A stretch of DNA of 64,000 nucleotides from Notoacmeibacter ruber (GTDB lineage Bacteria; Pseudomonadota; Alphaproteobacteria; Rhizobiales; Rhizobiaceae): the NCBI RefSeq assembly GCF_003668555.1, contig NZ_RCWN01000001.1:2641501-2705500 (forward strand). The letters run 5' to 3'. A program made the translations under genes and the position numbers. This document shows positions 32,571-37,003 of this stretch, piece after piece. The notes under the pieces were generated by a model that saw only the letters and a program-made list of their open reading frames with translations, was not told the origin of the DNA and searched no databases. The first letter of the stretch is position 1. Each line of letters begins with the position of its first letter.

Positions 32571-33025
32571 CCGGCAACGAGTGCCGCGCTGTCCACATAT
32601 TCCACGGTCAGCGCGGCCAGTAGCGCATAGCGCGCCAGTTTGCCGGCGGTCACAAGCACCAGAAAGAAGGTTAGCGGCGTCCGCGCCGCGCCGGCCAGCA
32701 CCGTCAGCGGATCGCCGATGATCGGCATCCAGCTCAGCAGCAGCGTCCAGATGCCATAGCGCCGGTAGAACCGGCTGTAGCGCGTCAGCGCCGCAGGCGA
32801 GACGGGGAACCACCGCCGGTCGGAAAAGTGCAGCAGAAATCGCCCGCACACAAAGTTCACGCACGAGCCCAGCACATTGCCGAGCGTCGCAACGCCGACC
32901 AGCATGGCAGCGCTCCCCTCGCCAGCCGCCAATAGCCCGACGAGCACCGCCTCCGACGCGCCCGGCAGCAGCGTCGCGCCCAAAAAGGCTGAGGCCAACA
33001 GGCCAAGCATAGCCGAAACTTCCAT
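32567..33025 (-). CDS. DedA/YqaA-like membrane protein
   Basis: 152 aa. Hydrophobic with four to five helices. LLPGASEAVLVGLL and GNVLGSCVNFVCGRFL carry the glycine-rich SNARE-associated/VTT pattern, followed by YSRFYRRYGIWTLLLSWMPIIGDPLTVLAG, matching the YqaA branch of the DedA superfamily. Relatives affect lipid scrambling and membrane homeostasis. Tail-to-tail overlap with typA. Confidence 0.8.
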   Translation of the reverse strand: MEVSAMLGLLASAFLGATLLPGASEAVLVGLLAAGEGSAAMLVGVATLGNVLGSCVNFVCGRFLLHFSDRRWFPVSPAALTRYSRFYRRYGIWTLLLSWMPIIGDPLTVLAGAARTPLTFFLVLVTAGKLARYALLAALTVEYVDSAALVAG

Positions 33026-33210
33026 GAGAATCTGGCGGTGAGGATGATGATCTGCCGGTTAGGTGAAATGGCGCGGAGTGTTAAGGGCGGCGGTCCGTTT
33101 TCGAACGAACAGACGGAATGACGGTCCACTCCGAAGCATGTCAGATTCGCGCGGCTTCCACCGCTCAGCCAGAAAAGGAAAGTCGAAAAGGTAGAAAAGA
33201 GGAAATAAAA

Positions 33211-33501
33211 CTAATAAATTTCGTATATGATCTCGACGATTGCTGGAGCGCCCAAGAAATCCGGGCGCGGCGCCCCTGAACGTCCGCCAATGGAAGAACA
33301 CTGCTCGATCTTCGACAAACGAAAATACCGCCAACCTAGATTCCCACTGCTAGAATTGCCCGCCACTTGCCAACCAAACAATATTAAATCGCCTGTGCGT
33401 GATCGGCCGATCACATGGATTTCGACGACTCTTTTTAAGCCATCATATTCGAATTCAACAGGCCTGCACTCCTTCGCCGCCGATAGAAGTTCTTCAAGCA
33501 T
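33211..33501 (-). CDS. Short WYL-like protein, partner of the OLD nuclease
   Basis: 96 aa. RPVEFEYDGLKRVVEIHVIG, then GWQVAG, SSSGNLGWRYFRLSKI and a final PRPDFLGAPAIVEIIYEI. The pattern (xxFxYxGxxRxVEPHxxG ... GxSSSGNxxGWxxFxLxxI ... PRPxY) is that of the short WYL-like proteins found near defence genes. WYL domains usually sense nucleic acid or nucleotides. No HTH is attached. Its start lies 8 bp inside the OLD gene, so the two form an operon. AT-rich like that gene. The family assignment is from motif memory. Confidence 0.6.
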   Translation of the reverse strand: MLEELLSAAKECRPVEFEYDGLKRVVEIHVIGRSRTGDLILFGWQVAGNSSSGNLGWRYFRLSKIEQCSSIGGRSGAPRPDFLGAPAIVEIIYEIY

Positions 33502-35397
33502 GCAAAAGTTTCCCGATACTTATTGCAATTTCGTCGAGCATGGAAAGCTCGGCGTCGCCGGCAGCAATCTCGTTAATAATCGCTCGAGCAACAACTGGGC
33601 TTTTACAGGCTTCCTTACTAGTTATATCAAATCCAGTACAATGACGATTCATAATTTCAGTATATTTGACTAAACCAACCTCCGACTGCAAATAGCTCTC
33701 GATGTGCCCTCTGAAGGCAGCGCCCCTTTCGAATACTCCGCTTGGAAAATCGTCTTCCTCCTCGCCTATCATCCGCATCAGTCGTCTGTTGCGCTTGATA
33801 GTCTGAGCTCGGTCATTTCCCTTCTCCGAGAAATCATTGTCCCACAAAACAAATGCAGGAATTCCCATTTTATCAAACGCAAAAAAAGGCTTATCTAGTT
33901 TTGATTTCCCCCCAACGCTGATTACTGAGAGTCCACTCAGATCTAGATCAGGTCGCCGTATTTCAAAATAAGCTCTGATCATCTCCGCGTCCGAGACGCC
34001 CTCGACAATCAACACAGTATCCGCAAAGAAGCCCTCCGATACTTCACGAGTAAAAATATGAAGCCCTGCGGCGAAAGCAATTTCAGATTTTGGATTAGGT
34101 GACTGCAAAAGACCGGCCATCCCCGCAGAAAAATCAGTCAAGGACAAAGAATTACAGTCAGTGGAGAAATGTCCGTCCTCGCATTTTCTTTTCGAAATAC
34201 GTCGGACATGGGCTATATCTGCCATATGAACGAATTTTTCACTGTGCGTCGTAAATATAATTTGAACTCGTATTCCTGTATGCCGGTTAAATGACTCAGT
34301 GATAGCCTTGAAGGCGCCGTAAAATGTTGACTGCTTCAGTGGATGCTGATATATTTCGGGCTCCTCAATAATAATTATTATATCACTCTGTGGCGAAGTA
34401 AATTCCTCTCCCTTCTCCTCCTCTAAGTCTCGACCTGTTAGAAATCTCACAATAGAAAAAAGCATAGCTCTCTGAAGGCCATGGCCTACATTCTCTACGT
34501 CAACTGCTATGTCGCGGTGCTTTATACTAAGGGTCGCTGAAGGATATTGAATGGGCATATCTTCGATCGGCAAAATGCTCGCTACAACTTCGGTATCTGA
34601 GTAGAAACCTGAGAGAATACTTGTCAGATTAGATCCGATACCAGCCAATTGGGGCACCGAATTAGGATCGGTCAAATCCTTCAAGCGATCTTTTGATTGC
34701 GAGATAAATTCTTTGAATTCAGTCTTGTTCTCAAATGTTTGACGGACGACGTCATTCAAAAGGCCCACCAGAGGCGATTTCGCTCCATCCGAAAATTTTG
34801 TCAGTTCCGTAGACGCGGGAATGAGCCTTATGGCGGTGCGCTTGCTGAGCTTTCCAGATGCTACGTTTACGGCCCCGAAGAAGCCCCGAATTTTACATTC
34901 TTTGAGCTTTTCGGAGTTTTCGCGCTCCCAATTTCGTAGAGCCTCCTCGGCCTTATCTGCACTCGCTACACTCGGAAGTTCGAATTTTTCTCTTATTCTG
35001 TCATAGGCGTTTTTTTATCACGCTTTCCGGATGTCTCATAAATCGGAATAAATTCATCTACTGATTTAGTCGTAACAAAAAATTCACCGCTGTGCTCGTT
35101 ACCGAAAATTCTCGAGACAGTCATCGTATCTTCGATTACTGCACTCCCAAATTCTTCTTTCTCGTCGCTTGTTAAATTGGAGAAAGTTACTGAGATATGG
35201 ATATCACGATCCCGATCATAGCCAATATGATCTTTTTCATCCATTTTTGGATTAGCAGAGAAAAAATTCTGGATGGCCAAGAGAATCGTACTCTTGCCAG
35301 CGTTATTCGCCCCAATAATTGTTGTCAGTCCATCCATCTTGACAGTAAGTTTTTCAATCGACCGAAAGTTTTCGATATGGACCGCTGATACTTGCAT
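33494..35397 (-). pseudogene. OLD-family ATP-dependent nuclease, frame broken at an A7 run
   Basis: The first frame (35397 to stop 34993) encodes Walker A IGANNAGKSTIL (residues about 32-43). One base shift at AAAAAAA (35010-35016) opens a frame that continues without stops to 33494, giving 634 aa in all. The second part has a signature-like VGHGLQRAMLFS, Walker B DIIIIIEEPEIYQHP, an H-loop FTTHSEKF, and a C-terminal TOPRIM domain with VLIVEGVSDAE and VLWDNDF. OLD proteins are ATP-regulated DNA nucleases in anti-phage systems (P2 Old, GajA). Strongly AT-rich, so recently acquired. It may be inactive, or expressed by slippage. Confidence 0.82.
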
Positions 35398-35923
35398 CGC
35401 AACTCTCCCGCTGATGTTATGCTACTCGATTCGCGCTCCGAAGTTAGGCTTAGCCGTCGCTTTCCACTCTTATTCACCCCTTCCAAACCTCCCCTATCCT
35501 CCTCCTACTGCCTTCCAGGAGCGACGGGATCGCGAACCGGAGATGTCGTGGGGGCGCGGGGCGAGCGTAGCGCGCCGGTGACGATCCGTGGTCATCGGCG
35601 GTGGGTGGAGAGATCCCTTTGGCTACGGACTTGCGGTGAGCCAAGACCGTTGAGCCTGCGGGCAAGGTTGCGGAGGCGGAAGCATTCACGGGCGGGTCTC
35701 CGCCGGGAAGGATGCTGCCGTCACAGAGACGTTCAGTCGATAATCGCCCGGATGGCGGTCGAAGGATCGCACCCGCACACACCAGATGACGCGCTTCTTT
35801 GGCCGCCATCCGCCGCTCTTTCTCTGTCACGCTGCCGGCTTATTGCCCGCGGCGCTTTCGGCATGGACGAGCCATAAGCCAGCGGGACTTGGTTTTTGCA
35901 AAAGGGCGACGCAAAGTGTCTGG
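35398..35923. other. 526-bp GC-rich stretch without a convincing gene
   Basis: It begins at the edge of the AT-rich island and ends at the YidH start. A 118-codon minus-strand frame (35474-35830) has low-complexity Pro/Arg/Ser composition and no domain. I saw no tRNA, terminator or insertion-sequence end. It may be decayed DNA or a repeat at the island border. Confidence 0.45.
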
Positions 35924-36304
35924 ATGACCAAGACGCCAGAGCACGACAACAAGACCGAATGGGCGCAGGAGAGGACCGACTGGGCCGAGGACCGCACGGT
36001 GCTCGCCAATGAGCGTACCTTTGCCGGCTGGATGCGCACCGGTCTTGCCGCTGTGGGTCTCGGCCTTGCAACGCAGGCCATTTTCCGCGCTGCCGAACCC
36101 ACCTGGGTCGCCAAGCTCGCAGCCAGCGGCTTCATTGCCGTCGGCATTCTGATCTTCTGGCTCGCCTGGAGAAATTGCTGCGGCGTTCTGAAACGGTTGA
36201 ACAGCCATGCCGCCGAGCCGGTTCCCCAGCGCCATATGGGCACCGTTGCAGGCCTTTTCGCCCTCGCCAGCATCATTGTAGCGGTGGTTCTATGGCTGAT
36301 CTGA
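35924..36304 (+). CDS. YidH/DUF202-family membrane protein
   Basis: 126 aa from the ATG at 35924. TVLANERTFAGWMRTGLAAV is the DUF202 signature, followed by three membrane helices in total (GLAAVGLGLATQAIFRAA, LAASGFIAVGILIFWLAW, AGLFALASIIVAVVLWL). Found widely in bacterial inner membranes; function unknown. An in-frame extension upstream to 35786 has no homology features and is rejected. Confidence 0.85.
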   Translation: MTKTPEHDNKTEWAQERTDWAEDRTVLANERTFAGWMRTGLAAVGLGLATQAIFRAAEPTWVAKLAASGFIAVGILIFWLAWRNCCGVLKRLNSHAAEPVPQRHMGTVAGLFALASIIVAVVLWLI

Positions 36305-36355
36305 CGCCGCTGAATCTGACTTGAAGAGAGCGCAGGATCATCGCAAAAGAGCGCC

Positions 36356-37003
36356 ATGCGCACTATCGATCTTGATGATTGGGACCACGCCGGCCCATTC
36401 CGCCTCTATTCGCAATATGAGCGCCCGCAATACGGGCTGACGGCGCGGCTCGATGTCACCCGTTTGATGACGGTTCTGAAGCCGGCTGGTCATCGGCCCT
36501 TCATCGTCATGCTTCACGCGCTGTGCCAGGCCGCCAATGTCGTTGCGCCCTTCCGCCAGCGCTTTCGCGGCGGAACGGATGGTGAGCCGCTCGGTGCAGT
36601 CGAACATGAATGGGTGGGCGTCTCGCCCACCGTGGCGCGGCCCGATGGCAGCTTCGGGTTTTCGGCCATCCCGCCTGCGGAGAATTACGCGGCCTTCGCG
36701 TCGAACGCGGCGCGCCTGATCGCTCAGGCGGCGGAAGGCACCGGCCTCGACGACCCGGCGGAGGGCGATCACTGGATTTACCTCAGCTGCACGCCGGCGG
36801 TCGATTTCACGGCCCTGACCAATGCGATGGAGGGGCCCCGCGATTGCGTGCCGCGAATCGTCTGGGGGAAATTCGTGGAGGATGGCGCAGGCCGCTGGTC
36901 CTGTGCCATTTCCATCGAGGTTCATCACTGCTTCATCGACGGCAGCCATATCGCGGCCTTCATCGCCGAGACGCAGAAGGTCATCGATACGCTACGGGCT
37001 TGA
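36356..37003 (+). CDS. Chloramphenicol acetyltransferase-like protein
   Basis: 215 aa, the normal CAT subunit length. The catalytic motif VHHCFIDGSHIAAFI near the C-terminus (HHxxxDG with the general-base His) and the SCTPAVDFTAL core match trimeric type A CATs. The N-terminus DDWDHAGPFRLYSQYERP replaces the usual W-R--F--Y pattern closely enough. It would use acetyl-CoA to acylate an alcohol; chloramphenicol as substrate cannot be assumed for a chromosomal homologue. GC content is like the host's. Confidence 0.82.
   Translation: MRTIDLDDWDHAGPFRLYSQYERPQYGLTARLDVTRLMTVLKPAGHRPFIVMLHALCQAANVVAPFRQRFRGGTDGEPLGAVEHEWVGVSPTVARPDGSFGFSAIPPAENYAAFASNAARLIAQAAEGTGLDDPAEGDHWIYLSCTPAVDFTALTNAMEGPRDCVPRIVWGKFVEDGAGRWSCAISIEVHHCFIDGSHIAAFIAETQKVIDTLRA

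Follow-up and report, generated by a model that had tools for sequence, protein, structure and literature searches.

We analyzed a 64,000-nucleotide stretch of the Notoacmeibacter ruber genome (NZ_RCWN01000001.1, positions 2,641,501 to 2,705,500; hereafter the window), in which an AT-rich island carries a gene of the OLD family and, overlapping its end, a gene for a small WYL-like protein. A first-pass annotation had proposed that these form a two-gene module without a helicase, and we found that the pair does recur across three phyla (Alphaproteobacteria, Actinomycetota and Deinococcota). The features of the locus are as follows, with ORF for open reading frame and aa for amino acids:

33160..35460 (approximate limits), no strand: AT-rich island, ~44% GC, flanked by VTT-domain and DUF202 genes
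33211..33501, minus strand: predicted 96-aa stand-alone WYL-domain protein (P0001), the downstream partner, from ORF, family alignment, model and structural matches
33494..34999, minus strand: C-terminal open frame of the OLD protein, with AAA_15 and PF20469; first listed start codon at 34768 (424 aa)
33833..34030, minus strand: OLD-like TOPRIM domain, PF20469 at residues 247-312 of the 424-aa ORF (E 1.2e-15)
34993..35397, minus strand: N-terminal open frame of the OLD protein, 134 aa, with Walker A GANNAGKS at 35290-35313
34993..35025, minus strand: reading-frame break of the OLD gene at a seven-A run; the pieces were aligned separately to one-frame relatives
35468..35810, no strand: repeat bordering the island, upstream of OLD, present in three genomes of the genus

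The AT-rich island of the first-pass annotation was borne out: three 1-kb windows within 33501-35500 have the lowest GC content of the 64 kb (0.443-0.447), while GC elsewhere is mostly 0.58-0.65, with a minimum of 0.496 outside the island and its edges. The ORF list and the sequence likewise agree on the small ORF at 33211-33501, whose start lies inside the end of the OLD frame on the same minus strand (8-bp overlap).

The OLD and WYL-like proteins

Both pieces of the OLD gene matched AAA_15, the N-terminal ABC-type ATPase domain (Pfam, E 3.2e-17 and 1.1e-16), and the longer piece carries the C-terminal OLD-like TOPRIM domain (PF20469, E 1.2e-15); in the C-terminal frame lie what we take to be the Walker B, H-loop and TOPRIM motifs. 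For the longer piece the best PADLOC model was Old (4.1e-34), and for the shorter one it was AriA, with Old a close second. The closest relative of the longer piece shares 49% identity across 99% of its 501 residues, and one-frame relatives such as P0005 and P0006 (633-635 aa) share 48-49% identity over 99% of it. In a comparison run on intact relatives, the best solved relative by both sequence and structure was Thermus scotoductus OLD. By these matches, the protein is a predicted ABC-ATPase with a TOPRIM nuclease domain, nearest the Class 1 OLD proteins.

The gene is not one continuous frame in the window: it is split into two by a break around position 35,010, at or next to a stretch of seven A. 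The 634-residue ATPase-TOPRIM protein that had been proposed is therefore upheld as to family (AAA_15 and PF20469) and fails as to its single frame, 634 being the read-through figure over the break. There is no further stop in the longer piece over its 501 residues. The pieces differ at only 4 of 96 columns invariant among 15 relatives, which themselves differ at 0-10 when each is left out in turn, so the break appears to be either a recent event or an assembly error. A programmed frameshift found no support, as the aligned relatives have a single frame at this place, though slippage may occur there. Judged by sequence, the OLD-family kinship of the protein holds despite the break, a support that does not extend to activity of the local copy; either that copy could be inactive, or the assembly could be in error at the homopolymer.

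For the small protein, the WYL profile of Pfam did not reach its cutoff of 21.8 bits (14 bits, E 0.051), and it matched 6 of 11 members of the small family at E up to 1 (best 6.5e-5). Pfam alone thus did not carry the earlier WYL-like label, but family alignment, model and structural alignment all gave a WYL/Sm-like domain. The predicted structure has a pLDDT of 90, its top ten structural matches are all PafBC, BrxR, DriD or CapW, and residues from ~1-86 to 1-90 of the 96 align to WYL domains. As modeled, the protein consists of one WYL (Sm-like barrel) domain and lacks the helix-turn-helix and WCX parts that WYL transcription factors have. A chance ORF was excluded: a profile built from the 11-sequence alignment recovered 142 proteins, the window protein included, and 119 of the 120 listed among these have lengths of 89-123 aa, the remaining one having 143 aa. 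A single-sequence search with the window protein returned itself as the sole match among 4 candidates. At the positions that we equate with arginines of PafB (24, 58, 61 and 64, an equivalence that we infer), R24 is invariant in 69 of 69 family members and no other is; the window protein retains R58, R61 and K64.

Recurrence of the pair and its alternative partners

We searched genome contigs with OLD only and fetched 53 loci (the OLD-led scan). The small family adjoins OLD in six of them (L012, from Rhizobiaceae; L017; L042, from Microbacterium; L045; L046; and L053), a count that draws on a profile partly trained on these members and in which L045 and L046 are close relatives, with OLD 73% identical. 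In all six the small gene is no more than 500 bp from OLD, and the other 590 kb of flank contain none, an outcome with a chance of 2.3e-7 if the genes were evenly spread. With the window small protein alone as query, we recovered the same six loci and nothing else there at E up to 1e-3. Label-free clustering of OLD neighbors placed the WYL family at the top, tied with KTSC at 6 loci each. WYL ranked first, with 9 loci (KTSC 5), among neighbors up to 700 bp from 65 OLD genes, some of which come from loci fetched through WYL.

Additional pairs were found in the genome G193 (a weaker small-family member without a Pfam match), on the Deinococcus plasmid pDrdII (L137, where the OLD partner has PF20469 at 1.5e-14), on a Rhodococcus qingshengii plasmid (L160) and in G656 (L165), where a DUF2130 gene stands between the two members. 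This brings the pair loci, the window included, to 11: five alphaproteobacterial, five actinomycetotal and one from Deinococcus. Their layouts vary. OLD precedes an overlapping WYL gene in the window and in G193, and WYL precedes an overlapping OLD in pDrdII, the overlaps in tandem pairs being 8 and 4 bp; the genes are divergent in L012, L017, L042, L045, L046 and L160, divergent with DUF2130 between them in L165, and convergent in L053. Because the same pairing recurs in distant bacteria and in several gene orders, the OLD/small-WYL pair is probably a real two-part system.

Other OLD loci hold a different small protein. A KTSC gene (PF13619) stands at OLD in L023, L026, L035, L048 and G243 (L130), and at 1.3 kb from it in L049; a KTSC gene 3.0 kb from OLD in L021 was excluded from the adjacency count. 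In L023, L026, L035 and L130 the KTSC ORFs, of ~70 aa, lie directly upstream of OLD, and the hosts are Acidobacteria, Bacteroidota, unclassified metagenome-assembled genomes and one alphaproteobacterium. The window genome itself has a second OLD locus (L164 6926-9074; G000:C1 ~181.9-184.1 kb) with an intact 620-aa OLD, and a 101-aa KTSC-domain ORF overlaps its start. In a neighbor scan, no locus held both WYL and KTSC. Since a KTSC protein occupies the same place at these loci, the small subunit seems to be a sensor or adaptor that can be exchanged. According to a published comment, KTSC is a domain that binds DNA and is found paired with HerA-like ATPases (PMC9503650), and the structure PDB 8wiv contains a HerA-domain chain carrying a KTSC-like end. 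DUF2130 genes also adjoin OLD, in L014 (split), L036, L045, L046, L049 and L165 (G656), in Actinomycetota and Alphaproteobacteria; among these six loci, WYL is present in three and KTSC in one. A tentative further reading, for which we would claim a sizable minority chance, is that these loci form an undescribed OLD class: an ATPase-TOPRIM protein under an interchangeable one-domain nucleic-acid sensor (WYL or KTSC by lineage), sometimes with DUF2130 as a third part, with both versions present in the window genome.

Several results weigh against a dedicated OLD/WYL system. The first-pass annotation had held that its proposal would be refuted if the small gene occurred mostly without OLD, and it does: in samples searched with the small family, OLD adjoins the small gene in just 2 of 35 distinct genomes other than our own. 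By sample, these are 0 of 7 (100 relatives), 1 of 19 (class sample, 385 genomes) and 1 of 17 (phylum sample, 398 genomes); the samples overlap, several of the weaker matches lie in longer ORFs, and part of the genomes were inspected with a 1.5-kb flank only, which farther partners, as in G656, could escape. On plasmids, OLD stands beside the small gene in 2 of 9 records inspected (15 matched). Conversely, the small gene is missing from 47 of the 53 OLD-led loci. OLD of this kind is present in 6 of the 385 class-sample genomes, our own included, and among the other five one has WYL (G193) and one KTSC (G243); of 11 plasmid records with OLD, four were inspected and one has the WYL gene. Among ten pairs, we detected no co-divergence of OLD and WYL (Spearman 0.13, a value reached by 794 of 4002 permutations). 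The WYL label is unclustered on the OLD tree, where its 10 carriers require 9 changes, no fewer than in 190 of 500 shuffles; L137 has a very long branch in this tree, and three of the carriers had been retrieved via WYL. The protein data add to this: Foldseek matches of the small-protein model all fall short of E 0.001, the positions matched to PafB arginines vary (basic at 58 in 33/69, at 61 in 5/69 and at 64 in 41/69), and the window small protein is the most deviant of 69, differing at 6 of 15 near-invariant columns (two others differ at 5). The OLD frame is interrupted in the window genome. Finally, YbjD, a Class 1 OLD protein, is reported to have anti-phage effects without a partner (PMC13261556). 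As the small gene occurs mostly without OLD, the pair shows no co-divergence and the label is unclustered, the sequences suit repeated joining of two mobile parts rather than a long-lived fixed pair.

The other neighbors of the small gene include housekeeping genes, transposases, DUF3800, SbcCD-like genes (in Aliarcobacter) and DUF2130. On an Aliarcobacter plasmid (L141 4983-5276), a small WYL gene is co-directional with an SbcD-like, an SbcC-like and a further ABC-ATPase gene, which suggests that small WYL proteins have partners other than OLD. In one genus, short ORFs (257-290 aa) near weak small-family matches at L170, L159 and L092 match the OLD profile weakly, and were not counted as OLD; Pfam gives AAA_21/AAA_15 without TOPRIM. 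At L170 6931-8098 and L159 1429-2605, distant small-family ORFs (135-165 aa) are divergent to AAA_21/AAA_15 ORFs (264-290 aa).

Known systems and a possible mechanism

We compared the locus with known systems that use OLD or WYL proteins. It shares with the Class 1 OLD proteins (P2 Old, T. scotoductus OLD and Escherichia coli YbjD) an ABC-ATPase with C-terminal TOPRIM and no adjacent helicase. Class 1 OLD proteins are described as single genes in a review (PMC10568477), whereas here a WYL gene overlaps, recurrently in other genomes, and related loci carry WYL, KTSC or DUF2130. Because the gene is not single, we do not file the locus under Class 1; it would work like Class 1 OLD plus a partner. 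With Gabija (Class 2 OLD, GajA-GajB) it has the OLD ATPase-TOPRIM effector in common, but not the UvrD-type GajB. We ruled Gabija out for want of an adjacent UvrD/PcrA/Rep-like gene: a PF00580 search of the whole genome gave two UvrD-family matches, ~0.98 Mb and ~0.26 Mb away, which confirms the earlier statement that there is no helicase. A retron with an OLD effector (Class 3) was also set aside, as no Rfam family scored above its gathering score in 33000-36400 and the flanks are VTT and DUF202, the rest of the window not having been searched with a reverse-transcriptase profile. PARIS was rejected, with no DUF4435 (AriB) match in the three ORFs of the locus at E up to 1.

More distant parallels exist for the pairing itself. 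OLD-nuclease dyads near BREX (e.g., HNH-OLD) also link an OLD-type ATPase to a second gene (PMC12839542), but there the partner is a nuclease, and the passages of that paper on WYL or lysogenization do not pair WYL with OLD, WYL being mentioned just in its references. BrxR/CapW-type regulators have a WYL domain and often lie upstream of and divergent from a defense gene; the small protein, by contrast, is a single 96-aa domain without helix-turn-helix or WCX, and is not always upstream. Compared with PafBC and DriD, WYL sensors of single-stranded DNA, it is a stand-alone domain in which the other arginines that bind single-stranded DNA are partly conserved. In HerA-KTSC gene pairs, too, a small KTSC protein accompanies an ATPase that handles nucleic acids (PMC9503650), although that ATPase is HerA-like, and our KTSC genes stand beside OLD at loci other than the window. 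An OLD-WYL or OLD-KTSC pair was not found in the literature searched, a search that left subscription papers and preprints largely outside. The pair may be undescribed, as had been suggested, in that it is unnamed in these texts and in the profile libraries, which does not imply absence from print. By the tests run, the locus is not Gabija, a retron or PARIS.

The explanation that we favor, at roughly even confidence, is a horizontally acquired OLD/WYL module in which a Class-1-like OLD ATPase-nuclease is gated by an accessory nucleic-acid-binding WYL subunit. Its direct support comes from the genes, the predicted folds, the recurrent adjacency and the alternative KTSC partner; the physical contact, the ligand, the gating, the anti-phage role and the horizontal acquisition are parts that we infer. 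Because the helix-turn-helix and WCX parts are missing, the small WYL protein would most likely be a small accessory subunit and not an ordinary promoter-binding regulator. It would bind a nucleic-acid ligand, such as single-stranded DNA or oligonucleotides from infection or damage, and gate the OLD ATPase-nuclease through contact. In the 2023 review, the regulation of single OLD proteins and their possible association with other proteins are listed as unsettled (PMC10568477). A separable small WYL/KTSC partner offers a direct handle on the open question of what triggers single OLD proteins. If true, the proposal would give WYL domains a role as effector subunits in addition to that in transcription factors.

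Other explanations account for parts of these data. The small protein may regulate OLD expression like CapW/BrxR, either together with a DNA-binding protein of the host or by binding RNA in the manner of Hfq, and its Sm-like fold would fit, as would the divergent OLD in 6 of the 11 loci (L012, L017, L042, L045, L046 and L160), or its placement toward DUF2130-OLD in L165; CapW itself is encoded upstream of CBASS, on the other strand (PMC9122588). We consider this unlikely, as 96 aa leave no room for a helix-turn-helix beside the barrel, and co-directional overlap in the window, G193 and pDrdII, together with convergence in L053, is ill-suited to promoter control. An antitoxin-like inhibitor, holding a toxic OLD enzyme off until infection, would explain overlapping tandem genes in both orders, and OLD proteins such as YbjD can be toxic (PMC13261556); its chances seem poor given that 47 of 53 OLD loci do without the small gene, that most small genes do without OLD, and that PARIS lacking either part was reported as non-toxic (PMC9122126).

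Coincidence, with two separately mobile accessory genes landing in the same sites and no joint function, would be compatible with the absent co-divergence and with the many small genes that stand alone, beside housekeeping genes or transposases. It fits poorly with six of six OLD-led small genes lying within 500 bp of OLD, none in the 590 kb beyond, and with overlaps of 8 and 4 bp, and we regard its chances as similarly poor. A different question, which concerns the local copy and not the family, is whether the window holds just the decayed remains of a pair or an artifact of assembly, so that nothing works locally whatever the family does. The break at a homopolymer and the deviance of the small protein speak for this, against which stand the 4 of 96 invariant columns, within the 0-10 of the 15 relatives, and the 501 OLD residues free of a further stop; we hold it to be a serious possibility, if somewhat short of even.

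Genomic site and origin

The first-pass annotation had looked to defense-island neighbors, and the immediate neighbors of the island offer none: by Pfam they are a VTT-domain gene and a DUF202 gene, neither a known defense gene. Two genomes of the same genus carry different cargo at this site: G001 has a 305-aa gene that Pfam does not match, and G002 (L085 5400-6393) has a SocA/Panacea antitoxin-like gene with a 128-aa neighbor that likewise has no Pfam match. The gene across the site from DUF202 in G001 and G002 is presumably typA. Because G001 and G002 hold different cargo there, the chromosomal site appears from these sequences to be one that takes up variable accessory genes. From its composition and the variable site, the OLD/WYL locus was probably acquired horizontally. 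Phage origin was rejected: phage records gave no match to the one small-family query used, that from L137, and OLD, the query for viral contigs, found a single phage, KS5, in two records, and a single viral contig, a distant one.

Around the island, a search for insertion-marking flanking repeats gave just weak short pairs, and promoter and terminator scans of the locus scored within the shuffle range. The ~340-bp repeat that borders the island had no Rfam match along it and was found in none of 18 other relatives searched. It occurs at several places in three genomes of the genus (window 35468-35810; L086; L087).
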